A program made the translations under genes and the position numbers. From the IMG/VR virus record IMGVR_UViG_3300030060_004613, positions 1 through 64,000 of that record: 64,000 nucleotides of DNA. One strand, 5' to 3'. The notes beneath the pieces are model-generated. The model saw only the letters and a list, made by a program, of their open reading frames with translations, was not told the DNA's origin and did not search any database. This document shows positions 2,974 through 29,700 of this stretch, one piece after another. Within the stretch, counting starts at the first letter, position 1. Every line of letters begins with the position of its first letter. Origin of the DNA: a virus.

Positions 2974-2997
2974 AGGAGGTGCGCCATGAAGAAATAA
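2974..2997 (+). other. Candidate minigene Met-Lys-Lys-stop
   Basis: A perfect AGGAGGT (2974-2980) sits five bases before ATG AAG AAA TAA. This is one of the strongest ribosome sites in the early region yet it leads only to a three-codon ORF. Phage lambda bar minigenes are comparable: they cause peptidyl-tRNA drop-off. Another Met-Lys-Lys-stop lies at 10475. It may instead be a remnant of a decayed gene. Confidence 0.4.
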
Positions 2998-2999
2998 AA

Positions 3000-3027
3000 C
3001 AAGACCTCGACACGTCTGAAACTGTCC
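3000..3027 (+). repeat. 28-29 bp dispersed repeat, copy 1
   Basis: Starts CAAGACCTCGACACGTC and ends GAAACTGTCC. Matches the copies at 3049 and 5555 except for a one-base deletion and few substitutions. The core holds GACA and TGTCC half-sites facing each other, suggesting a protein-binding site upstream of small early genes. Confidence 0.6.
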
Positions 3028-3048
3028 CCGATTTCTAACACAACAAGA

Positions 3049-3077
3049 CAAGACCTGGACACGTCGTGAAACTGTCC
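3049..3077 (+). repeat. 28-29 bp dispersed repeat, copy 2
   Basis: CAAGACCTGGACACGTCG followed by TGAAACTGTCC, 49 bases after copy 1 and about 20 bases before the ribosome site of the gene at 3104. The inverted GGACA/TGTCC half-sites are intact. Likely an operator or part of a promoter for the 3104-3920 operon (inference). Confidence 0.6.
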
Positions 3078-3103
3078 ACCTTCCAATCAACAACGAGGCA
3101 ACC

Positions 3104-3433
3104 ATGACAAGATACAGAGGGACCGGCGGCGATAGCCTACCAAAAGAGAACGCCCCAAGCAATTGGGTAGAGAACGTGTACTACCTCTTCATCGTAGAGA
3201 TGGAGAACGTGCCAGACGACACCCGCGTCGAGGACCTACCAAGAGTGAGCCGGGAACCAGGCAACGCCGTGGCAAGGTTCGAAGTGGTAGGCAACATGGA
3301 GCCAGAGCAAGCTGTACTTATGCTGCTCGGCAAAGCATTCATGAAAGGATGGAGCAGTGACAACTGCCTCAGTTTCATCACGCGGTCGTACAGTCTCCCG
3401 CACTTCTTGTCAGCCGAGGGAGGTGAGGAATGA
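3104..3433 (+). CDS. Hypothetical early protein, 109 aa
   Basis: Not recognised. Starts after AACGAGGCAACC, the standard ribosome site of this phage, downstream of two copies of the dispersed repeat. The stop overlaps the following start as ATGA. Mixed alpha/beta composition, no cysteine motif, no membrane span. Position between ardC and the putative origin suggests an early role only. Confidence 0.65.
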   Translation: MTRYRGTGGDSLPKENAPSNWVENVYYLFIVEMENVPDDTRVEDLPRVSREPGNAVARFEVVGNMEPEQAVLMLLGKAFMKGWSSDNCLSFITRSYSLPHFLSAEGGEE

Positions 3434-3741
3434 GGAGCTACATTGGATTGTGGGGTCGGTTGGACCCTGGACAGATTCAGATCGATGTCTTCTTCTACGA
3501 CAACGGTTCATCCGTGGCGAACTACCTCATCACCGACAAGATTGAGAAGAACCTGCGTACTGTCCGCAGGGACCTCAGCGACGCTGGCTTCGAGCAGAAG
3601 GGAGGCTTCGAGGAGGAGCAGTCCTGGCTGTACCCTGGCAAGATGACTCACATCGAGACTCACATTCGATGGATAAACAGAGAGACGAACCTGTACCAAC
3701 AGGTGCATGTCAAGTGGCTCGAAGATCTGGAGGAGAAGTGA
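3430..3741 (+). CDS. Hypothetical early protein, 103 aa
   Basis: Not recognised. The ATG overlaps the previous stop and follows GAGGTGAGGA. The sequence looks like a compact alpha/beta fold with many aromatic residues and no zinc or membrane signature. Its stop overlaps a GTG start at 3738, so the cluster 3104-3920 appears to be one coupled operon ending in the iteron region. Confidence 0.65.
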   Translation: MRSYIGLWGRLDPGQIQIDVFFYDNGSSVANYLITDKIEKNLRTVRRDLSDAGFEQKGGFEEEQSWLYPGKMTHIETHIRWINRETNLYQQVHVKWLEDLEEK

Positions 3742-3920
3742 GCAACCCAAGTGACCTGGAAAGAATCGTGGCTCGGACCCTGGAGCACTGGCTGCGGCGG
3801 AGCAATCCGTCCAGCCGTGTCTCCAAAACCGTCCAGAAAACCAACGACAAGATATCGGAATCATTAGAGTCTGAAACTAAAAGCGTCCAGACCACTGATC
3901 GAAAGCGTCCAGTCTGTTAG
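3738..3920 (+). CDS. Small ORF carrying iterons, 60 aa (GTG start)
   Basis: GTG at 3738 overlaps the previous stop and follows GGAGGAGAA, so I prefer it to the upstream in-frame ATG at 3669, which lies inside the neighbouring gene. The N-terminal 20 residues look helical; the C-terminal half is Ser/Thr/Lys-rich and is essentially the translation of the CCGTCCAG iterons, much like the linker of the replication initiator at 10483. It may be a degenerate fragment of such a protein, or just an ORF across the origin. Confidence 0.45.
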   Translation: MSNPSDLERIVARTLEHWLRRSNPSSRVSKTVQKTNDKISESLESETKSVQTTDRKRPVC

Positions 3921-3986
3921 GCAACCGTCCCGACAAACAGATGCAAGTGATTGAAATAAATGGAAAGCAAAAACGAAACCGTCCAG
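3804..3986 (+). repeat. Iteron cluster I (AAACCGTCCAG-type)
   Basis: Copies of an 11-bp element at 3804-3814, 3826-3836, 3880-3890, 3902-3912, 3922-3932 (variant ending CCG) and 3976-3986. Successive spacings are 22, 54, 22, 20 and 54 bp, so most lie close to the same helical face. The same element occurs four times inside the replication initiator gene near 10.7 kb. Direct repeats next to an AT-rich block are the hallmark of an initiator-bound replication origin. Confidence 0.75.
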
Positions 3987-4030
3987 GCGGACGACTCTAA
4001 AGTTTTCCTCTCCCCCATACCCCCTCTCCT

Positions 4031-4080
4031 ATCAAATGCTAATTACTGTAGAGTAATTAATTATAATTATAATATCTATT
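4031..4080. other. AT-rich block, candidate DNA unwinding element
   Basis: About 50 bases with very few G or C, beginning 45 bases after the last iteron. It contains a perfect inverted repeat (TAATTACT gtag AGTAATTA, 4040-4059) and a TTATAATTATAATAT stretch. Together with iteron cluster I and the C-rich tract 4008-4029 this looks like a replication origin, with this block as the melting site. Inference from layout; no experimental support here. Confidence 0.55.
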
Positions 4081-4084
4081 CCCA

Positions 4085-4213
4085 ATGAATAAGATCCAAT
4101 ACCAAATGATCAATACCCCATTGGAGAGCCAAGCTCATCCTGTTTGGGACGTGCTCGCCTATGCTTTCATCGCTCTTGCGCTGCTGACCACAGTGCTTTC
4201 AATGAGGGACTGA
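4085..4213 (+). CDS. 42-aa single-span membrane mini-protein
   Basis: ATG at 4085 opens a 42-residue ORF with a polar N-terminus and a clear hydrophobic helix at about residues 20-39 (Ala, Leu, Ile, Val, Phe), ending in a short charged tail. No good ribosome site is visible upstream (the region is AT-rich), which lowers confidence. A second internal ATG at 4106 also lacks a site. If real, it is a small inner-membrane protein adjacent to the origin. Confidence 0.4.
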   Translation: MNKIQYQMINTPLESQAHPVWDVLAYAFIALALLTTVLSMRD

Positions 4214-4329
4214 GAGCCTACCGAAAAAAACTTTCACCTTTTCTGTCCGCCGAAGACACCTGACCTCGTCTTCTCAAACAGGGAAGGGAACAACCCAACC
4301 CAACAACAACACCAGAGGCAACCAACCTT

Positions 4330-4692
4330 ATGAAACTTTCTCTTGATTTTATTCTTTCCCAAGACGACTACGAGGGCATCGTAGACATGGCGGGCATGAG
4401 CGGCGGCATCGGCTACTGGGCCATGGCCGGATGCATTGACAACACAGGCGAGGAAGGCGCGTACAAGTCCTACCTCGTCATTGATTCTGATGATGAGGAG
4501 TCATCCTACAGCTTGACGCGAGACAAGGTAGAGCAAGCAATCGCTCAGTTGTTTTTGAAGCGGTCACTCAACGGCTACTACATGAGTGCCATTGATATGT
4601 TGGTGCTCCAGGGTGAGTCTTGCAACGTTGGCGCAGACATCGCTGACGCTATCATCCAGCAGGCTTGCTTTGACGAGGTGATCTATGGGTGA
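4330..4692 (+). CDS. Hypothetical early protein, 120 aa
   Basis: Not recognised. The ribosome site CAGAGGCAACC sits 14 bases before the ATG, a longer spacing than elsewhere, after a leader that contains an A-run, a TGTCCGCC element and CAA repeats (4222-4325). The protein is acidic, Gly- and Ser-containing, with an even alpha/beta look. Its end overlaps the next gene by eight bases. Confidence 0.65.
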   Translation: MKLSLDFILSQDDYEGIVDMAGMSGGIGYWAMAGCIDNTGEEGAYKSYLVIDSDDEESSYSLTRDKVEQAIAQLFLKRSLNGYYMSAIDMLVLQGESCNVGADIADAIIQQACFDEVIYG

Positions 4693-4930
4693 GAACAACC
4701 TTCAGGAAGCAGTCCGAAAGACTCTTGTGAAAGCCAACGAGGTCATCCTTGGCAAGGAGGTCATCAACTGGACCATCCCTGCCGACGATGACAGCGGCAA
4801 CGTGTGCCTTGTGATGATCCTCAAGTGGAGGAAACAGCGAGGCAGCGACACACTCAAACCGTCACCGGGGTGGACAGTGCGAACAGTGATTGACCCCAAC
4901 GGAACAGTCCTGGCTACCGACAGAAAGTAG
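4685..4930 (+). CDS. Hypothetical early protein, 81 aa
   Basis: Not recognised. Starts within the last codons of the previous gene (eight-base overlap), suggesting translational coupling. Predicted one helix followed by beta strands (residues 28-80); no cysteine motif. Followed directly by the second tandem TGACA motif, so it ends this small operon. Confidence 0.6.
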   Translation: MGENNLQEAVRKTLVKANEVILGKEVINWTIPADDDSGNVCLVMILKWRKQRGSDTLKPSPGWTVRTVIDPNGTVLATDRK

Positions 4931-4933
4931 TCG

Positions 4934-4975
4934 TGACATTTGATGACAAACCAACAACCGTAGCTATGCTACTTA
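4934..4975 (+). promoter_or_regulatory. Tandem TGACA promoter-like motif, copy 2
   Basis: TGACAT (4934) and TGACAA (4944) spaced 10 bp, as in the copies at 1335 and 6950. At the position of the downstream TATAAG/TATATG box stands TACTTA (4970-4975), overlapped by a small palindrome GTAGC-TAT-GCTAC that could be an operator. Confidence 0.45.
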
Positions 4976-4997
4976 CACCATGAACAAGGAGGCAACT

Positions 4998-5540
4998 ATG
5001 TTCAACCACAATCCTAAAGTCAACCGAGCCGGGGCAGCGATGGCCCGAGCATTCCAACAAGCAGCCGAGGCTCTCATCGAGCAGCAAGAGTCCAATACAG
5101 TGTTCGAACCACGACACCTTGGACTCAAGCGATTCACCTTCGGTGGGACAGGCATTGGCCGACTGATGCTTGCACGAGGATTCAATCAACCTCGCATCGC
5201 TGTCAGTAATGGTTCTATTGCACTGGACCTTCGAGACAGTGAGAAGCATGACCAGTGGCTCGACACCACTGCCGATGTGCGAGAATGCACTGGCGCATCC
5301 TGGGAGAAGGAGACCCTGGGTATCAACCCTGGGATCCTCGACCAACACGGCTGGCCTATCCAGAAGCTGCACCATGAGAAGGCAGGTGTGAACGCTGTAA
5401 TGCTCAACGCTGCACTCAGGTGGGTAGGCGAGGGAGAGATCACCATCACCCAAAAGCCAACCGATCCACTCGGACCCATTCTAATTCAGAACCAGGACAT
5501 CCTGGTGTCAGCAGTGGTCATGCCATGCAGGCTGGCTTGA
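4998..5540 (+). CDS. Hypothetical early protein, 180 aa
   Basis: Not recognised. I choose the ATG at 4998 because AAGGAGGCAACT lies right before it; an in-frame ATG at 4980 has no site. The first 35 residues form a basic, Ala-rich helix, then an alpha/beta body with several conserved-looking Gly and Trp residues. No membrane segment. It is the main gene downstream of the second tandem TGACA motif. Confidence 0.65.
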   Translation: MFNHNPKVNRAGAAMARAFQQAAEALIEQQESNTVFEPRHLGLKRFTFGGTGIGRLMLARGFNQPRIAVSNGSIALDLRDSEKHDQWLDTTADVRECTGASWEKETLGINPGILDQHGWPIQKLHHEKAGVNAVMLNAALRWVGEGEITITQKPTDPLGPILIQNQDILVSAVVMPCRLA

Positions 5541-5554
5541 AACAAAACGTGAGG

Positions 5555-5583
5555 CAAGACCTGGACATGTCACGAAACTGTCC
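5555..5583 (+). repeat. 28-29 bp dispersed repeat, copy 3
   Basis: CAAGACCTGGACATGTCAC followed by GAAACTGTCC, matching the copies at 3000 and 3049 and located about 30 bases before the next gene start. The GGACA/TGTCC half-sites are kept. Confidence 0.6.
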
Positions 5584-5612
5584 GCCCCCCCCAACCCAAC
5601 CCAGGACCAACA

Positions 5613-5825
5613 ATGAAAAGTTTTCCACTTACTAAATGTCCACGCTGCGGAGAGAAGAAGCTCGTCGTCGCCCCGCTTGCACTGAACTGCCTGTCTCGTC
5701 GAGACAACAAGACCTACATTTGCACCCGGTGCGGAACGGAAGAAGCACTCAACGACTACTCCAACACCTGGAACGACGTGCATGATTGGGTGTCACCACC
5801 CGCTTCAATCGTCGCCCTTCAGTAA
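5613..5825 (+). CDS. Zinc-ribbon protein, 70 aa
   Basis: Two Cys-x2-Cys-Gly knuckles (CPRCG at residues 9-13 and CTRCG near 37-41) about 24 residues apart, a textbook zinc ribbon, with a Trp-rich C-terminus. Preceded by a C-rich leader and copy 3 of the dispersed repeat; the ribosome site is a weak CAGGACCAACA. Similar small ribbons are frequent in phage early regions; function unknown. Confidence 0.7.
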   Translation: MKSFPLTKCPRCGEKKLVVAPLALNCLSRRDNKTYICTRCGTEEALNDYSNTWNDVHDWVSPPASIVALQ

Positions 5826-5853
5826 CCAACAACAACAAACGACAGAGGCAACC

Positions 5854-6336
5854 ATGTCAGCATTTCAATGCACCCTTACCCACCTCGGCGCTATCGTCGG
5901 GACCTACATCGGCACTCGTTCTTATCGACAGTACGAGTTCGACAACTATGCGGGCTACGGATTCGGAAGCGAGGGGGAGCTACTCATTAGCATCCTCGAC
6001 AAAGCGAACGTCCGAAGCTTGAACGCTCGGTATCCGAACGATTCTAACTACACCCTGAGCCCGGACAGCGCGACTGCCAACAAGCTCTTGAACTACTTTG
6101 AGTGCAACCCGCTCACGCCTGGAGAGATGTTCAAAGCAATCAACTGCTTAGAGTATCAGTCCTGTGAGTTCGATGGCTGGCTGGAGAGCGATGCTTACAA
6201 CCTCTTGAGGATCATCCGTAACTCAACTCAAGAGCGAGTCCAGGGCTACGAGGATGCACCCTGGGGCATGAAGGACCTGGACCCCAGGCTCTTGGAGAAC
6301 GGACCAGTGCTACTCAGCAGCCTGGTCGGGAGGTGA
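5854..6336 (+). CDS. Hypothetical early protein, 160 aa
   Basis: Not recognised. Start set by CAGAGGCAACC before the ATG at 5854, behind a CAA-repeat leader; the upstream in-frame ATG at 5782 lies inside the zinc-ribbon gene. The protein has Gly/Tyr-rich N-terminal strands and a helical C-terminal half, three cysteines without a zinc pattern, and no membrane span. Confidence 0.65.
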   Translation: MSAFQCTLTHLGAIVGTYIGTRSYRQYEFDNYAGYGFGSEGELLISILDKANVRSLNARYPNDSNYTLSPDSATANKLLNYFECNPLTPGEMFKAINCLEYQSCEFDGWLESDAYNLLRIIRNSTQERVQGYEDAPWGMKDLDPRLLENGPVLLSSLVGR

Positions 6337-6339
6337 CTG

Positions 6340-6588
6340 ATGAACGAACTGACCAGCGTTCTTGGCTGGTTCGAGGTGCCCTTCAAGTTGGAGGGCACCA
6401 AGTTCACCGGCCCTTCGAGCGGGTACGTCTTCCAAACCAAACAATCTAAGCAAGCCAAGTATTTCAAAGAGAGGGACCAACATTATGAAACCCAAGGTAT
6501 TTCTTGTCCGATTCAACGCAAATGGGAAATGCTACGCGAGAGTAGCGCACTACCATTACAAAGACGACGACAACACAAAGATCTCTGA
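6340..6588 (+). CDS. Hypothetical protein, 82 aa, tail overlaps next gene
   Basis: Starts four bases after the previous stop with GGGAGGTGA as ribosome site. The first 46 codons look coding (Phe, Lys, Gly, Pro mix and codon choice like neighbours); the last 35 codons run out of frame across the beginning of the gene at 6485 and look less protein-like. Either a true long overlap, unusual for this phage, or a gene truncated by an ancestral frameshift. Confidence 0.45.
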   Translation: MNELTSVLGWFEVPFKLEGTKFTGPSSGYVFQTKQSKQAKYFKERDQHYETQGISCPIQRKWEMLRESSALPLQRRRQHKDL

Positions 6589-6952
6589 TCCATTGATGAC
6601 ATTCATTGCAGACCAACGAGCCCAAGATTCCACGGGGTCATGGGTTCCGTTGCCAAGGCTGCTTGCAACTCGGTGGGTGGTCTGGTCAGCGATGGCTGAG
6701 AGCCTCAACGCTCTTCGAGTGATCGACACTGTTGTCGTCGGAGACGACGTGTACGATGAGACCGCAGACTACATCTTCGATGTCTACTGTGATCGAATAG
6801 GACCACTGCTCGGATACCCGGACGTCAGGTGTAAGATGAAATACTTGGATGGGGACTACGTTGAAGTGTACCTGGATGCGTTCTCCAAGTTCCTGGCACA
6901 CTATCGAGAAAGCAAGACTGACCCCTTGCTTGAGATTGAAATCACACGATGA
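6485..6952 (+). CDS. Hypothetical early protein, 155 aa
   Basis: Not recognised. ATG at 6485 preceded by AGAGAGGGACC at a somewhat long spacing. Strong coding look through the whole ORF: an N-terminal beta segment, a central helix with WSAMAESLNAL, and an acidic Asp/Tyr-rich C-terminal part. It overlaps the preceding small ORF by about 100 bases in another frame. Followed at once by the third tandem TGACA motif. Confidence 0.6.
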   Translation: MKPKVFLVRFNANGKCYARVAHYHYKDDDNTKISDPLMTFIADQRAQDSTGSWVPLPRLLATRWVVWSAMAESLNALRVIDTVVVGDDVYDETADYIFDVYCDRIGPLLGYPDVRCKMKYLDGDYVEVYLDAFSKFLAHYRESKTDPLLEIEITR

Positions 6953-6991
6953 CATCTCGTGACAAACACTGGTAGCCTACCAGACTATATG
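6950..6991 (+). promoter_or_regulatory. Tandem TGACA promoter-like motif, copy 3
   Basis: TGACAT (6950) and TGACAA (6960) 10 bp apart, 20 bases, then TATATG (6986-6991), the same geometry as the copy at 1335. A perfect small palindrome GGTAG-C-CTACC (6971-6981) lies between the boxes. It precedes a CAA-rich leader and the operon starting at 7025. Confidence 0.5.
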
Positions 6992-7024
6992 TAAGAACAA
7001 CAACAACAAACCATAGAGGTAATC

Positions 7025-7546
7025 ATGGAAAACAACAACGACCTTCTCACTCTTGCTATTGGCAAGCTCGTTCAAGACAAGAACGTGAAGCTTGCTCGCA
7101 ACAACATCGAGCCTGGAAGCTACGACATCCCGGTGCTCATCCACGGCATCCTTCAGTTGGATGTTGCCGAGGACCCCAGCCCCCGCTCTGGGACGGCACG
7201 TCTCCCCTACACCAGGGTCTTAGCATTGCTTCTCAAGCACGCTGGGTACACCAAGGAGTCGTCTACCCGGACACTGATCAAGCTGTTCCAGCAGGCTCAC
7301 GCCATGGACAAGGATGCAGCCAAGCTTTTGGAGGATCGGTACGGACTGGAGGAAGCCCTCGATACTGTCCGCCGCATTGTCAAGGAGGGGTTGCCACCCA
7401 TCAATGTCAAGGGTGCCGTCAAGGTACGCAGCGAGGGACTCGTCATCGAGCAGCGAGAGCTTACTCGTGATGAGGCTGTCGCACTGGCTGCTCCTTCAAA
7501 GAAGCAGCGCAAACTCAAACCACGCAAAGAAGAAGGAGGTGAGTAA
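7025..7546 (+). CDS. Hypothetical early protein, 173 aa
   Basis: Not recognised. ATG follows ATAGAGGTAATC and a leader with repeated CAA. Mostly helical; a basic C-terminus (KKQRKLKPRKEE) could bind nucleic acid. First gene behind the third tandem TGACA motif; its stop overlaps the next start (TAATG), so 7025-8558 reads as one operon of five genes. Confidence 0.7.
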   Translation: MENNNDLLTLAIGKLVQDKNVKLARNNIEPGSYDIPVLIHGILQLDVAEDPSPRSGTARLPYTRVLALLLKHAGYTKESSTRTLIKLFQQAHAMDKDAAKLLEDRYGLEEALDTVRRIVKEGLPPINVKGAVKVRSEGLVIEQRELTRDEAVALAAPSKKQRKLKPRKEEGGE

Positions 7547-7770
7547 TGAAGACCTATCATGTTGAAATCGAACACACGGTGTACGTCGTGGTGGAGGTCG
7601 AGGCCGACTCGAAAGAGAAGGCCATCGAGCTTGCCCATGAGGCGACGAGCACACAAGAGTGCGGCACCTCGATAGAGTTCGAGGCTGACGAACCAGCCAT
7701 GATCGTCGAGGCATACCACGGTGGTAGCTGCGATGGAGGACACGTCACCGAGTGTGAGGAGGAGGAATAG
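7546..7770 (+). CDS. Small acidic protein, 74 aa
   Basis: Starts in the stop of the previous gene after GGAGGTGAGT. About a third of the residues are Glu/Asp, ending in EEEE, and the first 45 residues have the strand-helix pattern VEVEADSKEKAIELAHE found in many tiny phage and plasmid proteins of unknown role. A strongly acidic mini-protein could mimic DNA, but this is speculation. Confidence 0.65.
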   Translation: MKTYHVEIEHTVYVVVEVEADSKEKAIELAHEATSTQECGTSIEFEADEPAMIVEAYHGGSCDGGHVTECEEEE

Positions 7771-7771
7771 A

Positions 7772-8083
7772 ATGAGAATCTACCGAGTAAAACAAAACCT
7801 CGTCCAACCATTCACACCAAAGTTCTTTAGGTCTGCGGTGGATGCCAGGAAGCATGGCGTCCAGGTCATCCGAAAGTTCGTTGAACATGAGCGGAACTAC
7901 GTCAAAAACTTTCGATTGAAAGACGTACTGTACGACGCTGAGGTGTCCATCGATCAATGCGAGATTGAAAAGGCTGACAAGCAGTTCATCATTGACACGT
8001 TGAATGGCGATGACGCTGACCTAAATCCCACTACGATTGAGTGGTGGAATCCCCAGGACAAATGGGTAAAGGCAGGAGGATAA
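7772..8083 (+). CDS. Hypothetical early protein, 103 aa
   Basis: Not recognised. ATG at 7772 chosen for the GAGGAGGAAT site directly upstream; the in-frame start at 7721 would overlap the previous gene. Basic N-terminal half with a helix (residues 20-45), Asp-rich C-terminal half with tryptophans. No zinc or membrane signature. Confidence 0.65.
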   Translation: MRIYRVKQNLVQPFTPKFFRSAVDARKHGVQVIRKFVEHERNYVKNFRLKDVLYDAEVSIDQCEIEKADKQFIIDTLNGDDADLNPTTIEWWNPQDKWVKAGG

Positions 8084-8085
8084 TG

Positions 8086-8367
8086 ATGAATGACTTCGAG
8101 CTTACTGACAGTGTGACCATTGAGCTTACAAAGCTACAGTGGCTCATGATTATACAGGGACTACAGCGCAACAAACTTGCGTCCAAAACGCTTGCAGAGG
8201 AATCCAAAAAGAGGGGCCTCGAAGGAGACGTAGGGGCATTCAAGGCTGTACCTGGCTACCATGAGGACATGATTCAAAACCAACAGGCCATCGACTTCAT
8301 TCGACAGTTCCTGTTCACACCAGAACAGATTCAATTGGCTGAACAAATCAACGACAAGAGGGACTAA
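8086..8367 (+). CDS. Hypothetical early protein, 93 aa
   Basis: Not recognised. Two adjacent ATGs (8083, 8086); AGGAGGA is five bases before the second, so I use 8086. Predicted helical throughout, with an N-terminal strand. Sits four to five bases after the previous stop and two before the next gene, in the 7025-8558 operon. Confidence 0.65.
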   Translation: MNDFELTDSVTIELTKLQWLMIIQGLQRNKLASKTLAEESKKRGLEGDVGAFKAVPGYHEDMIQNQQAIDFIRQFLFTPEQIQLAEQINDKRD

Positions 8368-8369
8368 AC

Positions 8370-8558
8370 ATGGACAACTACACTGCAATCGGATTGGCTG
8401 AGGGCTTTATCGAAGGCTCTGAAGAAGACCAAGTAAGCGCATGGCAGCACCTCATTGACACTGGCTTGTGCTGGATTCTTCAGGGGTTCTTTGGCAGAAC
8501 TGCTCAACGACTTATCGAAGACGGTGTATGCAGCCCAGCGCAGAGCAATCAGGGCTAA
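8370..8558 (+). CDS. Conserved small phage protein, 62 aa
   Basis: Matches a small protein family I have seen often in phage genomes: a LAEGFIEGSEE-like start, then AWQHLIDTGL, LQG, FGRTAQRLIE and a short tail. Function unknown in all members I know of. Entirely helical by appearance. Its stop overlaps by a few bases the end of a minus-strand gene (8555-9088), a tail-to-tail arrangement. Confidence 0.75.
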   Translation: MDNYTAIGLAEGFIEGSEEDQVSAWQHLIDTGLCWILQGFFGRTAQRLIEDGVCSPAQSNQG

Positions 8559-9088
8559 CGCTTCCGAGCCCAGGCAATCCCTCGGGACTCCTGGGTGCGG
8601 GCCGTGGCATACCGCTCCATCTTTCTCACAGCCTCTGACTTCTTCTTCTTGGTGTCCAAGTTGTGGAGAGTTCGAATGTCAGTGAACTTGGAGCGGCGTT
8701 GCTTGCGGTTCTGGCGGCACGCTTGGTAAGCCATGAGTGATTCCTTTCCGACCAACATAAGCCTAAACAACGGACCCTTCTGGTTGTACAGAAGGTCGCA
8801 CGCTTCCCTGGTAGAGTCTGGAATCTCCCTCATGCTTTCTAATACCTCCGTGTCAACGTGGTCCCAGTCAATGTGCTTGTCTATAAAGTCCGACGACACT
8901 CTTCTCCATCCTGTTTTGAAAGGAGAGGGCTGCCTTGGGACAACAGATAGAAAGCAGTTGATTGCTGACCTTTGGCTCAATCCAAAGTACTCGCGCAGGG
9001 CTTTGGTGATCTTGGCGCGAGAGAAGCCAGACTTGTGCATTTCCCTTACAACATTCTGATGTTTGCTATTCCAAAGACGAGAACCCAT
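8555..9088 (-). CDS. Minus-strand HTH-like basic protein, 177 aa
   Basis: Reads opposite to its neighbours. Start at the ATG at 9088, six bases after GGAG. Residues 7-45 look like a helix-turn-helix (SGFSRAKITKALREYFGLSQ), and the C-terminal 50 residues are very basic (RKQRRSKF, KKKKSEAVRK), so it is a likely DNA- or RNA-binding protein. The + strand frame across it is Ser-rich and less convincing. The start codon shares bases with the + strand start at 9087. Could be a regulator acquired as a stand-alone unit; specificity unknown. Confidence 0.65.
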   Translation of the reverse strand: MGSRLWNSKHQNVVREMHKSGFSRAKITKALREYFGLSQRSAINCFLSVVPRQPSPFKTGWRRVSSDFIDKHIDWDHVDTEVLESMREIPDSTREACDLLYNQKGPLFRLMLVGKESLMAYQACRQNRKQRRSKFTDIRTLHNLDTKKKKSEAVRKMERYATARTQESRGIAWARKR

Positions 9089-9461
9089 GAGACGCTCCAC
9101 GATTAGAGATGCCGAAACAAAAGCCATCGAGGTGGCTGAAGGAACCCGTGTTCCATCTGCACCATGGCACTACGGTGCTGTACAAGCATGGCTCGCCTGG
9201 AGAAAAGTTCAAGAGGAAATGGAAGATACTTGGATGCTCAAGGACTTTGCGGCGGACTGCAACAGCACCATGGTCAAAGTCGTAGCGGTACTATCGGGGC
9301 TCACCAAAGCTTCAGGTTCATTCGATGCTGTCCACAAGTGGTGCATTGAAATCTCTGCGGCCTGGAAAGACCGTGGTGTTCCGTATGACATGTGGCTTTT
9401 GGCAAGACCTGATGGGACCATTGGAGCAAAAGCAAGGAGGACTACTGGATCATCAAAGTAA
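9087..9461 (+). CDS. Hypothetical protein, 124 aa
   Basis: Not recognised. The ATG at 9087 lies on the complementary bases of the minus-strand start at 9088, so the two genes diverge from the same codon. The ribosome site is poor (GACGAGAA). The protein appears fully helical with Trp and Ala, and a looser Gly/Arg tail; the composition supports real coding, and the minus frame opposite it looks random. Confidence 0.55.
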   Translation: MRRSTIRDAETKAIEVAEGTRVPSAPWHYGAVQAWLAWRKVQEEMEDTWMLKDFAADCNSTMVKVVAVLSGLTKASGSFDAVHKWCIEISAAWKDRGVPYDMWLLARPDGTIGAKARRTTGSSK

Positions 9462-9484
9462 AGAGTACTATATGTGAATACACA

Positions 9485-9520
9485 GCGGATTCATCCGCAC
9501 CCCAAAAACCGATTAGGGGT
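9485..9520. other. Adjacent small hairpins
   Basis: GCGGAT/ATCCGC (9485-9498) is followed by ACCCC/GGGGT (9499-9503 with 9516-9520). They lie after the 124-aa gene and at the end of the minus-strand ORF 9491-9733. They could stop or slow either transcript; no T-run is present. Confidence 0.35.
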
Positions 9521-9733
9521 TATCCACTGGTGCTTAGGGCACCATCGGAGACCCTCGAAGTCACCACTAACAACCTCGAAGTAGCTTGGAAAAGGATAGC
9601 CCTCTTGAAAACACACAGGACAAACCCTGTCGATGCTTTTTGCAAGATGGTCTCTAATCAAAACCCGCTTACCAACTTCGAAATCAACAGACTCCTCCGA
9701 GTCATCAACTCGGGGAAAAAGAGGCACTACCAT
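9491..9733 (-). CDS. Putative small zinc-finger protein, 80 aa (strand uncertain)
   Basis: On the minus strand the ORF ends in a protein-like segment with CPVC near residue 38, a WCPKH near residue 64 and a final Cys, a plausible zinc site. The start ATG at 9733 has only a weak GGTGG. The + strand is also open here (from a GTG at 9530 with AGGGG upstream) and uses codons more like its neighbours, so the strand call is not secure; the zinc-like spacing decides me slightly for minus. Confidence 0.4.
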   Translation of the reverse strand: MVVPLFPRVDDSEESVDFEVGKRVLIRDHLAKSIDRVCPVCFQEGYPFPSYFEVVSGDFEGLRWCPKHQWITPNRFLGCG

Positions 9734-10010
9734 GGATAACCACCGATCAACACCAAAACCTAAAGAAACGCCAGCACAAAAGTTCTATAGGCTTTCTACA
9801 GTAAAATCAATGGCTGAGTTTGCTCGCATTGTAGATTTTCACCCAGTGACTATTAGAACTTACTTACTCCCCAGTGACCGAAAAAGCTGGAAGCAAGCAC
9901 CGATTTCATCTCTTCATGACTGGGCTCAGTCAATCAAAGATAGTGGCGGCCCTTCGATTGCAATTGGACTGTGGCCTGATGGAGACGTCACGTTTGAAGT
10001 CGAAGAGTAA
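9732..10010 (+). CDS. Hypothetical protein, 92 aa, possible HTH
   Basis: Starts after AGAGGCACTACC, a variant of the standard ribosome site. The segment MAEFARIVDFHPVTIRTYL (about residues 31-49) resembles a helix-turn-helix, followed by SSLHDWAQSI; a small DNA-binding protein is possible. Lies in the cluster leading to the replication initiator. Confidence 0.6.
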   Translation: MDNHRSTPKPKETPAQKFYRLSTVKSMAEFARIVDFHPVTIRTYLLPSDRKSWKQAPISSLHDWAQSIKDSGGPSIAIGLWPDGDVTFEVEE

Positions 10011-10299
10011 GCGTCCGAAATACTGGTCGAACTGGAGAGAAGACCCCAAGCTCGCGGGAATCGTGGCCTCCTATGAGATTTGTATCGACGACCGGCTCTG
10101 TGTAGTAGCAATCACGAACACTGGAGTTCCTATTCTGGAGATTGTTTCTCCGAGGGACTGCATTCGAAAGAGAGCTAAAGAGGCGGGGCTGGTCTTCGGT
10201 ACTTGGCCAACAGATGACGGACAAATGAAAAGGGGTTGGTTACCAGGGAGACCTGACGAGCCTCAACAAACCAACCCTTATTTGATAGAGAAGAAATGA
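9979..10299 (+). CDS. Hypothetical basic protein, 106 aa
   Basis: Not recognised. The frame is clearly coding from about 10005 on; the start is uncertain. I give the ATG at 9979, which overlaps the previous gene by 32 bases; a TTG at 9994 with GGAG upstream is an alternative. Basic N-terminus, then a beta-rich domain and a Pro/Gln C-terminal stretch. Confidence 0.55.
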   Translation: METSRLKSKSKRPKYWSNWREDPKLAGIVASYEICIDDRLCVVAITNTGVPILEIVSPRDCIRKRAKEAGLVFGTWPTDDGQMKRGWLPGRPDEPQQTNPYLIEKK

Positions 10300-10478
10300 T
10301 GGGCTTTACAGATTCCCCTCCATTTTGTAAAACCGAGGGCTGTGGCAACGTCCCACAGGCTTACATCAAGGGAAGCTTTAGATGCTCATCGTGTGCAGTA
10401 AAGATCCAACTCAACACCATCAATAGAATTGAGATCAACCAACACGGTGTTGCTAAGTATCAAGGAAAGGACCAATGA
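10296..10478 (+). CDS. Zinc-finger mini-protein, 60 aa
   Basis: Cys residues at 11, 16, 30 and 33 in the pattern C-x4-C ... C-x2-C fit a single zinc site. Start after GAGAAGAA; two tandem ATGs at 10296/10299. Its stop overlaps a Met-Lys-Lys-stop mini-ORF (10475) that in turn overlaps the initiator start at 10483. Confidence 0.65.
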   Translation: MMGFTDSPPFCKTEGCGNVPQAYIKGSFRCSSCAVKIQLNTINRIEINQHGVAKYQGKDQ

Positions 10479-10482
10479 AAAA

Positions 10483-11421
10483 ATGAGCGAGCAGCAGGGA
10501 CCAACCGGAGTTTGGCTTGACCTCGAACTCTGGAACAGCATCAAAAAAACAACAAACCAACCCTGGCCGCTCGCTTTGGCTCAGTTGGATCTTGGCTTTG
10601 TAGAACAAGAGTACGGCGCTCTTCTTTCTCGATCCCAGTTGATGGAGCGATGGGGACTCAGTGAAAGAAAAGTACGCACCGTCTTGAGTCGCTACAAGAA
10701 AAAACGTCCAGACTCAAATCATAAACCGTCCAGTATTGCGCCCAGCAAAGTGACGCAAGTTGCTGGAATCACTCCAGTTGACACGGCAACACCGTCCAGG
10801 CCAGGGTTAAAAACCGTCCCGAAATGCACCGACGTTTTCGACGAGTCTGTACAGACTATTTTCCGTTGTTGGGAGCAGCTTCAGTTTGATAGAACTGGTC
10901 GCCACAACAAGCTCACTAAGGGTAGAGAGAGAGTTCTTCGGTCGGCTCTCAAGAGTGGTCACTCCGTCGATGACTTACAACTTGTGATTCGAATGGCCTT
11001 TGAGTATCCAGATGGCGACTTCATGATCGATTCTTGGAGAACGCAGGGCTACATGGACATCACGAACCTCCTGAATCGAGAGAAGATAGACCGCAATGTC
11101 ACCCTCGCAGCAGAGCGGTGGAAAGGAAATGAATGGTCATTCAGTAAACCAAAGGTCATCACCTTCGATGCAAAGTATCAGAAACTATGGGACCACCTAC
11201 AGTTCTTACTCGGAGCATACGGTTCAGAGCCAGACAGCTTGCATAAGAACCCCCGTGTCAGTCAAGCAATGTCCAGTGCAGTACGAGCCATTGGGGGATG
11301 GCGGATGCTCGGGAGCTTAAGGTCCGGTCGAGACATGGAAAAGGTACGACAAGACTTTCTTTCTGAAGTCCAAGGCAACATCATCAGGATTCAACAACAA
11401 ACCAAACAACGGAGCATGTAA
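10483..11421 (+). CDS. Replication initiator-like protein, 312 aa
   Basis: The N-terminal 90 residues form a winged-helix-type domain (SRSQLMERWGLSERKVRTVLSR). A Pro/Ser/Thr linker at about residues 74-115 is encoded by the iteron DNA. The C-terminal part has the helical pattern W..LQFDRTGRHNKLT...RERVLRSALKSG and FMIDSWRTQGY seen in phage replisome organisers. It sits directly before dnaB (TAATG overlap). By layout it is a lambda O-type protein: binds iterons, melts the origin and recruits helicase. The ATG at 10483 is chosen over an in-frame TTG at 10429. No Walker motif, so it is not an AAA+ initiator or loader. Confidence 0.75.
   Translation: MSEQQGPTGVWLDLELWNSIKKTTNQPWPLALAQLDLGFVEQEYGALLSRSQLMERWGLSERKVRTVLSRYKKKRPDSNHKPSSIAPSKVTQVAGITPVDTATPSRPGLKTVPKCTDVFDESVQTIFRCWEQLQFDRTGRHNKLTKGRERVLRSALKSGHSVDDLQLVIRMAFEYPDGDFMIDSWRTQGYMDITNLLNREKIDRNVTLAAERWKGNEWSFSKPKVITFDAKYQKLWDHLQFLLGAYGSEPDSLHKNPRVSQAMSSAVRAIGGWRMLGSLRSGRDMEKVRQDFLSEVQGNIIRIQQQTKQRSM
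10701..10821 (+). repeat. Iteron cluster II inside the initiator gene
   Basis: The 11-bp element AAACCGTCCAG occurs at 10701-10711, 10723-10733, 10789-10799 and 10811-10821 (last copy ends CCG), with a degenerate copy at 10767-10777 (AATCACTCCAG). The spacings are multiples of 22 bp (22, 44, 22, 22). This parallels lambda, where the origin lies within gene O, and the element is the same as in cluster I at 3.8-4.0 kb. Confidence 0.75.
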
Positions 11422-12812
11422 TGGGACCGACCCCCCCAAAGAGCATTCAAAGCGAAAAGGTAGTTCTCGGCGGACTACTTATGGAGCCTTCCCTCATCAA
11501 CGATGTGGTTGCCGAGGTGGAAGCAGACGACTTTGCTCAACAACAACACCGAGATCTGTTCAAGCTAATCAAGTCATGGGTAGCAAAAGGCAAGCACGTT
11601 GACTCTGTTATGGTAGTGGAACATATCCGAGCCACTGGCACGCCCGCGAATCTCGACATTATGTACGTCATCTCTTTGCCAGAGGAGTGTGGAGCTACAG
11701 CAACTGTTCCTTTTCATGCCAGGAACGTCCGTGAAACAGGTATACGTCGCAGAATGTTCGAGGCTTCATCTGCTTTAGTAAGCAACGCATCGGATACCAG
11801 CCTTGAGATTGATGAGCTTATTGAGCAAGGCCAAAGGGAATTGCTGGAGATTGCTGGCAGGCAGCGTGGAGATGATTGGTTTGAGGGGCCACAACTTGTC
11901 GAGAGGGCTCAGGACCGCTGGGAACGCCTGGTAGAGATGAAGATGAAAGGCGAAGTAGCTGCCTTATCTACAGGCCTGGTGGCTGTAGACAACGTCCTTA
12001 GTGGACTGCATCCGGGCTTGAACCTGTTGGCTGCTCGACCATCGATGGGAAAGACTGCGATGGCTTTGAACATCACGATGTCGGCTTTACAGCAAAACGT
12101 GCCTGTTGCTTTCTTCTCATTAGAAATGAGCGCCGACCAACTGGTAGATCGAATGGCCTCGGCTCTCGCTAAGGTAAGTGCCTGGAACATCAAGACCGGG
12201 TCTTTGAAAAGCGAGGAGTGGGGAAGGTTGGAGAATGAGGCTCTGGACTTTTTGCACAACGCTCCTTTGTTCGTATCCGACAAGGCCGGTGTTTCGATCT
12301 CCAAGATTTCTGCACAGGCTCGGAGGTTAAAGTCTAAGGAGCCAAACCTTGGACTCATCGTCATTGACTACCTCCAGCTTATTCGACAGCCAAAGGCTGA
12401 GAGTATGGAGCAGTCTGTCTCTCAAGTCTCCAGCACACTCAAGGTCATATCCAGAGACCTCAACGTACCTGTCCTCTGCTTGGCCCAGTTGAACCGTGGT
12501 TGTGAGCAAAGGTCCAACAAGAGGCCAATGCTCTCTGACCTCCGAGGCTCCGGCTCACTGGAGCAGGACGCTGATGTGGTCATGTTCCTGTATCGACATG
12601 CCTACTACGATGACCGTGCTGATCCTACGGATGCTGAGGTAATCGTTGCAAAACACAGGAGTGGACCCACGGGTGCGGTCAACGTCACCTGGGATGCGAA
12701 CAATCAAAAGTTTCAAGACAAGGACACTGGTCCTAAGTTTTCTATGGTGAAGGCCGCCATGAGGACCAGGAGAGACATCGACGACGAGGACTCCGAGCCG
12801 TCTTGGTTTTAA
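11421..12812 (+). CDS. dnaB: DnaB-like replicative helicase, 463 aa
   Basis: Full-length DnaB: an N-terminal helical domain (QSEKVVLGGLL near residue 10), a linker, and a RecA-type ATPase with Walker A ARPSMGKT at about 206-213, Walker B LIVIDYLQL near 312-320, an AQLNRG sensor and the DLRGSGSLEQDADVV arginine-finger/H4 region near 375. Length is normal for the family. It unwinds DNA 5' to 3' as a ring hexamer at the fork. No separate loader or primase is visible nearby, so primase is either host-derived or outside the window. It is the last gene of the long early operon; a terminator follows. Confidence 0.95.
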   Translation: MGPTPPKSIQSEKVVLGGLLMEPSLINDVVAEVEADDFAQQQHRDLFKLIKSWVAKGKHVDSVMVVEHIRATGTPANLDIMYVISLPEECGATATVPFHARNVRETGIRRRMFEASSALVSNASDTSLEIDELIEQGQRELLEIAGRQRGDDWFEGPQLVERAQDRWERLVEMKMKGEVAALSTGLVAVDNVLSGLHPGLNLLAARPSMGKTAMALNITMSALQQNVPVAFFSLEMSADQLVDRMASALAKVSAWNIKTGSLKSEEWGRLENEALDFLHNAPLFVSDKAGVSISKISAQARRLKSKEPNLGLIVIDYLQLIRQPKAESMEQSVSQVSSTLKVISRDLNVPVLCLAQLNRGCEQRSNKRPMLSDLRGSGSLEQDADVVMFLYRHAYYDDRADPTDAEVIVAKHRSGPTGAVNVTWDANNQKFQDKDTGPKFSMVKAAMRTRRDIDDEDSEPSWF

Positions 12813-15283: not shown

Positions 15284-16222
15284 TTGTCTAAACCAGAAGG
15301 TTGGTTCGAAGCTCGTAGAGCGGGTCTCGGTGGCTCTGACATCGCCGCTGTACTTGGCTTGTCTAAGTGGCAAAGCCCTATGGATGTTTGGTCTGCAAAG
15401 CGCGGACTGTCAGAAGAAGTTGTTGAAACAAACGCAATGCGCCGGGGTCGCCTTCTGGAGTCAGCCATTGCAAATTGGTATCAGGAGGAAACAGGACTTG
15501 AGGTTTTGGATGGCAATGAAATGCCAATTGTAGGACCAAAACCTTTCATGCTTGCTTCCCCCGACAGGTACGTCAGTGCTGGGAAAACTCGGTTCGGGTT
15601 GGAAATAAAAACGGCGCGTAGCGTTGACGGCTGGGGAGATGACCTTGGCTCTGGCGTACCTGTTTACTATGCCACTCAAGCAGCATGGTACATGGCTTGC
15701 ACAAACATTGACCGATGGGACTTTGCTGTGTTGTTCCTCGTGAACGATGAGTTCCGTCGCTACACTTTGATTCGAGACAAGAAGACCGAGAAGAAGCTGG
15801 TCAAGAAGTGCGGCGACTGGTGGAAGAGGCACGTTGTTGGAGGAGAGCCTCCACCTATCGATGGATCAACAGCGGCGGACAAATTTTTGCAGGGTAAGTA
15901 TGATAATCCAAATGAAGAGTATCGACTGGCTGTCCCTGAAGAAGAAGAACTAATTTTTGAACTGGACGATATTCAGAACGAAATCAAAGCACTCAAAGAA
16001 AAAGAAGCACTATTCAAAAACCAACTCAAAGAAAAGATTGGGGAGAACGCAGGACTTAGAGGAACCTTTGGAACTGTAAGTTGGAAAATGTCTAACGGAC
16101 GAACAAGCTTAGACTCCAAATCTCTTAGAAAAGCGCACCCCGAGATAGCTAAAGAGTTTTCTAAAACCAGCGAACCAAACCGAATCTTTCGAATGAAAGT
16201 TCAACACAAGAGAGGCAACTAA
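15284..16222 (+). CDS. YqaJ/lambda-type exonuclease, 312 aa (TTG start)
   Basis: PD-(D/E)xK nuclease of the YqaJ viral recombinase family. Visible motifs: an early GGSDIAAVLGLS helix, RRGRLLESAI with a catalytic-site Glu, ASPDRYV with the metal-binding Asp, and the L-E107-I-K109 core. A coiled helical C-terminal part (residues 225-255) is typical. It degrades one strand of a DNA end 5' to 3' for strand annealing by the RecT protein encoded next (TAATG overlap). No ATG is possible near the start; TTG at 15284 follows AGGAG by six bases. Confidence 0.92.
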   Translation: MSKPEGWFEARRAGLGGSDIAAVLGLSKWQSPMDVWSAKRGLSEEVVETNAMRRGRLLESAIANWYQEETGLEVLDGNEMPIVGPKPFMLASPDRYVSAGKTRFGLEIKTARSVDGWGDDLGSGVPVYYATQAAWYMACTNIDRWDFAVLFLVNDEFRRYTLIRDKKTEKKLVKKCGDWWKRHVVGGEPPPIDGSTAADKFLQGKYDNPNEEYRLAVPEEEELIFELDDIQNEIKALKEKEALFKNQLKEKIGENAGLRGTFGTVSWKMSNGRTSLDSKSLRKAHPEIAKEFSKTSEPNRIFRMKVQHKRGN

Positions 16223-17010
16223 TGGCCAAGAACGAAATCGCAAACAAGCCGCCAACCAAGATGGAGAAGTTTAAGGATCTCATCAACAACAAGATGAAAG
16301 ACCAAGTAGCATCCATCTTGCCCAATCATTTAACTCCAGAGCGCATGTGCAAGGTTCTTATTGTAGAGGCCAGCCGGAATCCGAAGCTAATGGAATGCAC
16401 CAGCATCTCCGTAGCTGAATCGGTCATGCTGTCGGCGCAGCTTGGCCTGGAGCCAGGAGGCACGCTCGGCCACATCTACTTCATTCCTTATGGGAACAAG
16501 TGTACGCCAATCATTGGCTACAAGGGATACCTGGAGCTTGCTCGACGCAGTGGCCAGGTAGCTCGCCTCGATGCCCGTGTTGTCTACGAGGGCGAGAAGT
16601 TTGAGGTAAGCGCAGGGCTCCACCCTAACATTGAGCACAGTGTTCGAGGAGACGTGGACCGTTCAGACGACAAGATTGTGGCAGCCTACGCTGTTGCTGT
16701 TCTCAAGGACGGGTCCTCTTACTTCGAGGTGCTGTGGAAGGTAGACATCGACAAGGTTCGTCGTCGGTCCAAGGCTGGACGTAGCGGGCCATGGGTAGAC
16801 GATTACTCTCGGATGGCTCGCAAGAGCGCTATCCGTGCTCTGTTTAACGGCGGCACTGTGCCTATGTCCTTCGAGCTTGCAACGGCTGTCTCTTCAGATG
16901 GAGATGATCCTCACGCAAAGATGCCTCCTATCGACATTACGCCAATCGTTGGCGAGGATGAACCCAAGGAGGTAAATGGAATGAGCGACCTTGGTGCGGC
17001 CCTGGCATGA
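16222..17010 (+). CDS. recT: RecT-family ssDNA-annealing protein, 262 aa
   Basis: Clear RecT/Bet-like signature: an N-terminal LPNHLTPERMCKVLIVEA helix, SVAESVMLSAQLGLEPGG, LGHIYFIPYGNKCTPIIGYKGYLELARRSG, and the SGPWVDDYSRMARKSAIRALF segment. The protein coats and anneals single strands made by the upstream exonuclease. Length is normal for the family. The stop overlaps a zinc-ribbon mini-gene at 17007. Confidence 0.95.
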   Translation: MAKNEIANKPPTKMEKFKDLINNKMKDQVASILPNHLTPERMCKVLIVEASRNPKLMECTSISVAESVMLSAQLGLEPGGTLGHIYFIPYGNKCTPIIGYKGYLELARRSGQVARLDARVVYEGEKFEVSAGLHPNIEHSVRGDVDRSDDKIVAAYAVAVLKDGSSYFEVLWKVDIDKVRRRSKAGRSGPWVDDYSRMARKSAIRALFNGGTVPMSFELATAVSSDGDDPHAKMPPIDITPIVGEDEPKEVNGMSDLGAALA

Positions 17011-26752: not shown

Positions 26753-29700
26753 TTAGTCATCTGTAGTTTCTACTACGCCTGTGCGTAGGGAGACGTCAAG
26801 GTCTTCGGGGTCTACTCTTGCCGAAAGAATGTTAATGACATCCTCAAGCCTGCGTTTTTCGTTGAAGAAGAGACGTAATGCAGCAGCTTGTGGAGTTGGG
26901 ATAGTCTGGATGTTGAACAACAGCCCCAGGAATCCTTCGTCTACTCCTAATCGTCCACGTTCCCCACGCACTGGTACTCCGTCCGGGCTTGCAAACATGA
27001 TGTCTCCATCATCATTCAGAACAAACCCTGCTGCGGTTATACGATCTATCATAGTCTTGTATGAGCCCGGTGCATCTGGATCGTAATACCCAAGAGACTC
27101 CCTTTTACCTGCCTCTACTTTTTGAGTGTAAGAGTCGTATTCCATTTGAAGCAGTTGTGGGATGAGGTACTGGCCACGAACCATGCGGCTCATTGTGTCC
27201 ATCGAACGACCAAAGATGCCGAGTTCGAACGGCATTCCAAGCGTTGAAAAACCTTGTCTGGATGCTTCGAATGGATCCATGCGCAGAAGCATTCCGGGCA
27301 AGGAACGATCAATTGGTCCCAAGTTAACACCTGGAATAACACTGTCTCTCAAAGGCGTGATTGGAAACACACCATGAAAACTACTTCGTAACAAGAAGTA
27401 GTTCACCGCATTGCTTGCCTCGTAAACATGAGTTTGACCAGGAAACTCTTGTGGCTCATACTCCCGCAGATGGCGTACTTCGTAGCCAACCATTTCCAAA
27501 ATCATCCCACCTGTGGTCAACAGATCGTACTGGACAAAAGATGTTGGGATTCTTTTTGGACCTAAATCTCTGCCACGGAAAAAATCCTTTTCGAAAGCAG
27601 CACCGAGGAACGATTGTATCCATGGATTCAATCGAGCTAACGTTTTGATTGCTCGCTCGCTTGTTTGTTCCGTTTCTGCGAGACCGGGAGTAAGCGCTGA
27701 GATGATTGCGAAAAAGTCAAAATGCGCCTTGAGAGCCTCTGCCGCTGGTAACACGGGAGCGTTCACACGATTTGCCTGAACCATGTGATCGATACCATTC
27801 CTAAGGAATGCAAGACCAAGCCTGTCAGCACTAAACTCGCTCTCAATCAAAGTTGAGTCACCATCCAAGAAGTGCTGGTTCAAGCCGCGAGCCAACCTAA
27901 ACTGCGCGAAGATTCTGGAGGGATTCGTAAGCAGTGTATCGTAGAACAAGTCCATGTTCTTTCGCTGAAACGAATAGAAGATGAATACAGTCCGCATCGT
28001 TTTGCGTTCGAACTCGGTTAGATCTGTGTAGTCAAACAACGCTCTACGAGCCACTCCTGCGGCATCAGTCGTGGACAGGCCTTTCTCAACCCCATCAAGA
28101 AACACCGCAACTCGGTAGTAGTTGTCGATGAAAGACGCAAAGTTGATAAGTTGATTATGATAGAACTTAGCAGCAGCAATTGGTTTGTAAGCAAGGCTTG
28201 CAGCACCTCTCGCAGCAGCAGTCACTCCTTCTGCCGTAACAGCTACAACGTCTGACTCAAGTGGCGACCCTGGACGAGAGTAGTATGGCCCCTCTTCAGT
28301 CATCGTGCGCCAGTAACTGGGTTCGTTTCGCTTGAGGTCCTCTGCCAGTGACGTTGCAGTTTCCGCCGCGAGGAACGAGCCGGTGATGTTGAACTCCTCA
28401 ATCATAGAGATCAACTGTCGTTTCGTATACACCGTCCCGTCTGGAGCTACGAGTGGTCGAACTTTGTTCCACCGCATATTTTTTGGCTGACCACCAAACA
28501 CGCTGGCAGCAAGCTCCAAAGACAAAAGGGCGTTTGGTCCAAAGGTTGTCGTAAAGTATCCTTTGGCACCAATTGTCATGTACACCTGGAACTGAGCACC
28601 AATAAAGTTTGCCGTGTAGTAAGCAAGGTTTGGAAGTAACAATCCAGACGTTACGCCCATTTTCATAAGGCGATAGCCTACAGTGTAACTGTTGAATAAG
28701 AAATCAACGGCCTTCTGCGTCGTTGCTCCTGCAAGCTCTTTTGCTGTTGCTCTCGGTAAACCAAACTCCTCAGGTACAGAGAATCGAGTTCTCTTGGCCA
28801 TTAACCCTGCACCCATTCGACCGGATGCCTCTCCTGCTAATCGGTCAATTTGAGCTTCGATTTCTTCTTTGAAGAACGGAGGAACCAAACGTTCCGATCC
28901 ATCTAAGAACCTTACAAGCTCAAAGTCTTTACCATCGGAACCAAGCTTCAAGCCCCATTCTTCAATAAGCTGCATGGCCATTTGAAAGGCTTCAAGATCA
29001 TGAATGACTCTACCGCTTTTGAGACCTGGAGCATCCTCTAAGACTTGGTACTGGAACGTGCCTCGTTCTCTGGAACGTTTTTGTGCTGCGGCGGAATACG
29101 GAGCGCTTTCGCCTGATTTGCCTTGAATCAACTCTCCGTAGGCTCCTCGTTTTGGAGATGCAAGGTTCGCCCGCATGCGGCCAGTGGGTCGCCCATATTG
29201 ATCAAGAGTGATTCTTACACCACCAAAGTTCAACTCCTCATCGATGTACATCTTCACTCGCTCAACAAACTGTCGGCGTTCTGCTGCACCACGAATATCG
29301 GCAGGAGCAATTTCATCAATGCCGGTTTTCATGCCATACCGGGACATGTCATCCAAAAGGCTCTGATAAATATGGTCAGCCCTTAGACGCAAGATTGCCT
29401 CAAGAGCAGCGTGTGGCAGTGAAAACTTACCAGGCCGAACTGATGCTGTACCCACAGCAAGACCCTCGCCTGCAAGCTCAACCAACATTTGCTCCCATTC
29501 GCCCTTGTAGAACAAATCGTAGAATCGGATAGCAAAGGTTTTGTCTACAAGAGGATTTTCAATTTCCCGACCCAGCTTTACAGCTTGCTCTGGCGAGCCA
29601 CCAAACGCAGCAAAAAGCTTTAGGGTAGTTTGATTGGCAAGATGGACCCGTTGATCAATGCCTTCCTCAATGACCTCGTATGCTTCTGCAATCGCCCGCT

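Follow-up and report, generated by a model that had tools for sequence, protein, structure and literature searches.

Two arrays of phased CGTCC-core iterons, one of them inside a putative replication initiator gene, in a viral genome

The window analysed here, from an environmental phage, is the 64,000 nt at positions 1 to 64,000 of IMG/VR record IMGVR_UViG_3300030060_004613, and all coordinates refer to it. An ORF of 312 aa at 10483-11421 (+) encodes a putative replication initiator or replisome organizer, assigned from its match to phrog_16167, its AlphaFold2 model and its Foldseek neighbours. The gene downstream, at 11421-12812 (+), encodes a phage DnaB-family replicative helicase of 463 aa (DnaB_C, 1e-91; DnaB N, 3e-19). 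At 11421 the stop codon of the initiator and the start codon of the helicase overlap, and there is no separate loader gene between the two genes. Further downstream in the early region are genes for a RecE-like exonuclease and a RecT-like annealing protein (15284-17010, +), which would give context to a switch from theta to concatemer replication. The window also encodes an ArdC-type anti-restriction protein (1819-2829; ArdcN and MPTase-PolyVal domains) and a single ORF of 4452 aa at 26753-40111 (-). The search for a host found no tRNAs in the window and, by initiator profile or helicase, no relative in genome contigs.

The AlphaFold2 model of the initiator, built from a 12-row alignment, has a mean pLDDT of 64.5. 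It shows a winged-HTH-like N-terminal region (helices within residues 14-73), a disordered, low-confidence linker (76-115), a better predicted helical segment (115-174) continuing to about residue 212, and then a helical C-terminus. The model is suggestive of a DnaD/Phg_2220_C-like domain at residues 115-212. All 12 homologues searched match phrog_16167 (replication initiation protein), although these matches are weak (best 5.7e-5; 0.0019 for the window protein). Pfam gave weak HTH and Phg_2220_C matches for the family, none of them significant, the latter in one of the 12 homologues at E = 0.11. No Phage_rep_O match was listed for the 12 homologues up to E = 5, and there was no Rep_3 match in the initiator or its 12 homologues. 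The fold search returned no significant PDB match, and the one match of the PDB sequence profile, 45 residues of chain SAKe6AR, was disregarded. Among viral models (BFVD), the Foldseek neighbours are HTH proteins, phage-C-terminal-domain proteins and replisome organizers, all at low overall TM-scores; the names include 'Phage conserved hypothetical protein C-terminal domain', 'Replisome organizer' and 'Replication initiator'. The predicted architecture of winged HTH, linker and small helical C-terminal domain, with the helicase gene adjacent, resembles that of the DnaD-like/Phg_2220_C replisome organizers, but the sequence match to that family is limited to 0.11 in one of 12 members.

The stretch of the gene that encodes the disordered linker carries an array of 11-mers with a CGTCC core in a 22-bp register. 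The first-pass annotation described five copies spaced by 22, 44, 22 and 22 bp, and the positions read from the sequence agree: 10701-10711 (iteron 1, +, AAAACGTCCAG), 10723-10733 (iteron 2, +, AAACCGTCCAG), 10767-10777 (the copy described as degenerate, AATCACTCCAG), 10789-10799 (iteron 3, +, ACACCGTCCAG) and 10811-10821 (iteron 4, +, AAACCGTCCCG). Iterons 1 to 4 were also recovered by a position weight matrix (PWM) scan and keep their register in relatives. The 11-bp iterons are not palindromic. A stability scan of the window found no AT-rich opening tract adjoining the in-gene array, the 3' flank of which is not unusually unstable (z about 1.2), and GC skew was uninformative as an origin locator in the window as it tracks gene direction.

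Repeats in a coding sequence could be codon-driven or of low complexity and have no function, the null that came with the first-pass annotation. Proline codons are indeed repeated in the linker, which as a disordered region would tolerate repeats. However, the four in-gene sites occupy all three codon frames (0, 1, 1 and 2) and the repeats are therefore not codon-driven. Additionally, CGTCC[AC][AG] at offsets 0, 22, 88 and 110 arose in 0 of 20,000 synonymous recodings of the 312-aa protein, and four such sites at any spacing in 6 of 20,000.

Single-sequence searches with the initiator found no relatives among viral contigs and INPHARED phages, and relatives were reached instead through the adjacent DnaB helicase. 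This gave viral contigs with helicases 69-70% identical and initiators about 50% identical to those of the window. Initiators of 38-42% identity were picked up with a profile search, and three more came from a DNA-only search for arrays. The in-gene sites lie at the same place of the gene in all 13 records searched by pattern, a number that includes the window's own record, partial records and relatives that share ancestry and are not independent trials. The nearer relatives have exactly the register of the window (0, 22, 88, 110), with the motif CGTCCCAA in place of CGTCCAG; in one record (L006) three sites are kept and the first has one mismatch. Where the initiators are 37-42% identical, each half of the array is a triplet at 11-bp steps and the halves are 78 bp apart. 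The four good copies reported within an initiator-like gene hold up, and their array is kept in every relative found. The fifth copy does not: the slot corresponding to 10767 holds GRAATCAC in the relatives and not an iteron, and the conserved in-gene arrangement is one of 2 + 2 sites.

The PWM scan of the 64 kb found ten strong sites in two clusters, and elsewhere isolated matches that are weaker or, at 28429, equal to the weakest cluster member. The expectation that the repeats are not scattered across the window was borne out, but they are not confined to the initiator gene. A second array, built from this motif and running on the same strand, lies at 3804-3986; the first-pass annotation missed it. 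It consists of six sites, defined by the PWM scan: 3804-3814, 3826-3836, 3880-3890, 3902-3912, 3922-3932 and 3976-3986 (distal iterons 1 to 6, all +). Spacings are 22, 54, 22, 20 and 54 bp, or offsets of 0, 22, 76, 98, 118 and 172. The sequence CCGTCCAG has three exact copies outside the initiator gene, at 3807, 3829 and 3979. A short ORF (3738-3920, +; 60 aa, starting VSNPSDLERIVARTLEHWLRRS), conserved in relatives in its N-terminal half, shares its 3' part with distal iterons 1 to 4, and the rest of the array is in non-coding DNA. The iterons are followed by a pyrimidine-rich tract conserved in the alignment of distal regions (4000-4031, +, AAGTTTTCCTCTCCCCCATACCCCCTCTCCTA) and then by an AT-rich tract, a candidate DNA unwinding element (DUE), at 4030-4079. 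By nearest-neighbour stability this tract is the least stable 50-mer in the 64 kb (z = 5.1), and the 100-mer of lowest stability is at 4016 (z = 4.6). The anatomy of 3804-4079, phased iterons and then the weakest duplex of the window, is that of an origin.

The surroundings of the distal array have some further features. On its other side, an ORF at 4085-4213 encodes a 42-aa protein that is conserved in relatives (93% identical in L009). Upstream there are two 24-bp direct repeats, 88% identical and 49 bp apart (2993-3079), each followed by TGAAACTGTCC (at 3017 and 3067). The 3000-12000 region contains 22 terminator-like hairpins against 9.2 expected, nearly all on the minus strand, which may reflect the base composition, the coding strand being A-rich.

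The two arrays could also be operators at which the initiator or another regulator controls the early genes and the initiator operon, with no part in the start of replication. Both are on the coding strand among the early genes, the AT-rich tract at 4030-4079 holds TATAAT-like strings, and many iteron initiators also autoregulate. Nevertheless, there is no sigma-70-like promoter at either array, the sites are not palindromic, and the in-gene array is some 220 bp into its gene, an unusual place for operators. Many direct repeats together with a DUE-like tract and a DnaB operon have the anatomy of an origin, and we regard the operator explanation as improbable.

The distal array is found in the same gene neighbourhood in relatives. 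Its offsets are exactly those of the window in L007 and L009, and are 0, 22, 76, 98, 107 and 162 in L008 and L010. In G013, a distant 73-kb phage, they are 0, 11, 78, 89 and 100 with an additional degenerate site. No distal array was seen in the remaining relatives, most of whose records are short. The two arrays are about 7 kb apart in the window and about 11 kb apart in relatives. We considered whether the distal array had been relocated between phages and rejected this, as the synteny shows that it is the initiator-helicase cassette (10429-12812) that is inverted: it runs along the early genes in the window and opposite to them in L007, L008, L009, L010, L035 and L038. How the two arrays are oriented to each other is therefore not a conserved feature.

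There is a second element, B, in the long gaps between the iterons. With both strands counted, the 64 kb contain exactly three copies of the motif CAAGN4YGRAAT, each long iteron gap holding one: at 3848-3861 (B1, +) and 3944-3957 (B2, +) in the distal array, and at 10756-10769 (+, CAAGTTGCTGGAAT) between the in-gene iteron pairs, where it overlaps the degenerate copy at 10767-10777. Its YGRAAT core begins 26, 26 and 37 bp past the preceding iteron core (3848, 3944 and 10756 copies, respectively) and 28, 28 and 29 bp ahead of the next one; the in-gene value of 37 bp exceeds 26 bp by roughly one turn of the helix. The relatives have a looser form of the element, placed at +59 in their in-gene arrays; in their distal arrays its positions are +48 and +144 (or +134). 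In G013 it is at +59 of the distal array, and both the layout of that array and the position of element B match those of its own in-gene array. Element B probably positions or bends the nucleoprotein complex, and it may be a site for a host architectural protein or a second initiator contact. That it is an IHF site is speculation: some copies come close to YAANNNNTTG, but with a consistent deviation in the flank.

The base that follows YGTCCM differs between the window and its relatives, and it does so at both loci. Across 48 aligned sites it is G in all ten sites of the two window arrays (CGTCC[A/C]G) and A in each of the 38 sites from five nearer relatives (YGTCC[C/A]A; the in-gene array of every one of the five and the distal array of three). 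The motif and spacings of the gene are found again in DNA that is mostly non-coding, and from phage to phage they change together. These comparative data already refute the null of functionless repeats, for which we see practically no room. The winged helix differs as well, with S51-Q52 in the window protein and R51-[K/R]52 in all homologues that have CCCA sites. L069, one of the phages with an in-gene array from the DNA-only search, has CGTCCAG sites and P51-S52, again without the R51-[K/R]52 pair; it groups with the other clade (split support 100/99), its own branch being long. This covariation, which comprises two cases and is accompanied by differences at other winged-HTH residues, suggests that residues 51-52 help to set iteron specificity. 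The initiator and its presumed binding sites at the two loci would then have visibly co-evolved.

Taken together, the site layout, its conservation and the gene context indicate that both arrays are very likely docking sites for starting or controlling the copying of the phage genome. The winged HTH of the initiator would recognize the 11-bp CGTCC-core site, and several copies would assemble on the phased sites at 3804-3986 and at 10701-10821. The complex on the distal array would most likely open the adjacent AT-rich tract at 4030-4079, and the DnaD/Phg_2220_C-like domain could then deliver the phage DnaB encoded next door. The distal locus would thus probably be the main origin and opening site. 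The in-gene array has no comparable opening tract and is therefore more likely a second assembly site, either a weaker second origin or a barrier or control site at which forks may be paused, the initiator titrated or handcuffed, or the initiator gene repressed. We consider this scheme as a whole, a distal main origin with a second or control site inside the initiator gene, to be reasonably probable.

The closest known system appears to be the two-site one of the Bacillus phage SPP1 with its initiator gp38 (G38P), rather than the lambda origin. In SPP1, oriL lies inside gene 38 and oriR elsewhere, and each has direct repeats and an AT-rich tract and is bound by gp38 (PMC6316719, PMC3485210). 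Replication begins at oriL; the proposed role of bound oriR is to stall forks and set off concatemer synthesis (PMC6316719, PMC3485210). The window shares with SPP1 the two distant direct-repeat arrays with one inside the initiator gene, an AT-rich opening tract, the gene for a DnaB-family phage helicase beside the initiator gene, and the exonuclease and annealing recombination genes. In contrast, the SPP1 origins are 12-13 kb apart (about 7 kb in the window and about 11 kb in relatives), both have a marked AT-rich tract whereas the window has one at the distal locus only (z = 5.1, against about 1.2 in the gene), and the window has no separate loader gene between initiator and helicase. By its layout the system may work like that of SPP1. 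We do not file it as a demonstrated member of that system because it has a single marked AT-rich tract and no loader gene in between, and because the comparison with the gp38 system covered its layout.

The SPP1 precedent bears on two other assignments of roles to the arrays. In the first, the in-gene array would be the principal, lambda-type origin and the distal array a secondary site like oriR. In agreement with this, the in-gene array is present in every relative found, including those with short records, the theta origin of SPP1 is the in-gene oriL, and the DNA 3' of the in-gene array is moderately AT-rich in L011 (z = 2.9) and L007 (z = 2.0). However, the same flank is not unusually unstable in the window or in L035-L038 (z of 0.5-1.3 in the latter), and the distal flank is the stability minimum of the whole window. 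We therefore think this assignment unlikely, though less so than operators. The second is a narrower form of the two-locus scheme, with the sole origin at the distal locus and the in-gene array serving only for control by autorepression, handcuffing, titration or a fork barrier. The lack of an adjoining DUE-like tract in the gene agrees with it, and a control site would tolerate the variable orientation that the cassette inversion brings. On the other hand, replication of SPP1 starts at its in-gene site, and the geometry and element B kept in both arrays suggest that the same complex forms at both. This narrower form is a serious possibility that we put a little below an even chance. The broader scheme, in which the in-gene array is a second origin or a control site, is the one we prefer.

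Lambda has one array, and its loader P works with host DnaB. The first-pass annotation likened the in-gene repeats to the iterons of lambda gene O, and this survives in part. As in the lambda origin and its Stx-phage variants, iterons about two helical turns apart lie in mid-gene (PMC7466680), with lambda spacings of 20, 24 and 23 bp (NC_001416 annotation). The likeness does not extend further: lambda iterons are 18-bp inverted repeats with an adjacent in-gene AT-rich tract, whereas those of the window are 11 bp, asymmetric and without such a tract, and the window has its own DnaB, no Phage_rep_O match and a second, larger array with an opening tract 7 kb away. Rep_3 iteron plasmids are alike in their phased direct repeats beside an AT-rich tract and in possible autoregulation and handcuffing, but the window initiator has no Rep_3 match and one of its arrays is inside the initiator gene. 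There are no CGTCC repeats in the TP901-1 rep gene.

The window and its relatives might represent an undescribed class of phage replicon, a proposal we make tentatively and with somewhat more doubt than belief. It would be defined by a two-part code of CGTCC iterons and the bipartite element CAAN5YGRAAT, helically spaced and present in duplicate, once within the initiator gene and once at an origin that is mostly intergenic, with iteron specificity switching in concert at both loci with the winged-helix residues (R51-K/R52 with CCCA sites, S/P51-Q/S52 with CCAG sites). Two questions become testable with this case: how iteron specificity can shift while an array that lies within a coding sequence stays intact, and for what reason certain phages retain a second initiator-binding array inside the initiator gene. 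With phased CGTCC sites and element B as a signature, such loci can be found in metagenomic phages by their DNA sequence alone.

The DNA-only search also recovered in-gene CGTCC-type arrays in other phages. L071 (about 11400-11550, -) has a CGTCC/TGTCCC array in the gene of a Lin1244_N protein (replication initiation), and L057 (1467-1581, -) has inverted CGTCCC...GGGACG units in a gene with DnaD/O-like matches. There are dense arrays in L069 (3356-3510) and, of the CGTCC/TGTCCC type, in L072 and L074, all in ORFs without a family match. Six further candidates (L058, L059, L060, L061, L064 and L070) were unrelated tandem repeats and were discarded. The arrays of the five retained phages are mostly in steps of about 10-11 bp and at least two of the ORFs are replication-initiation-like, and GTCC-core iterons inside genes may be common.
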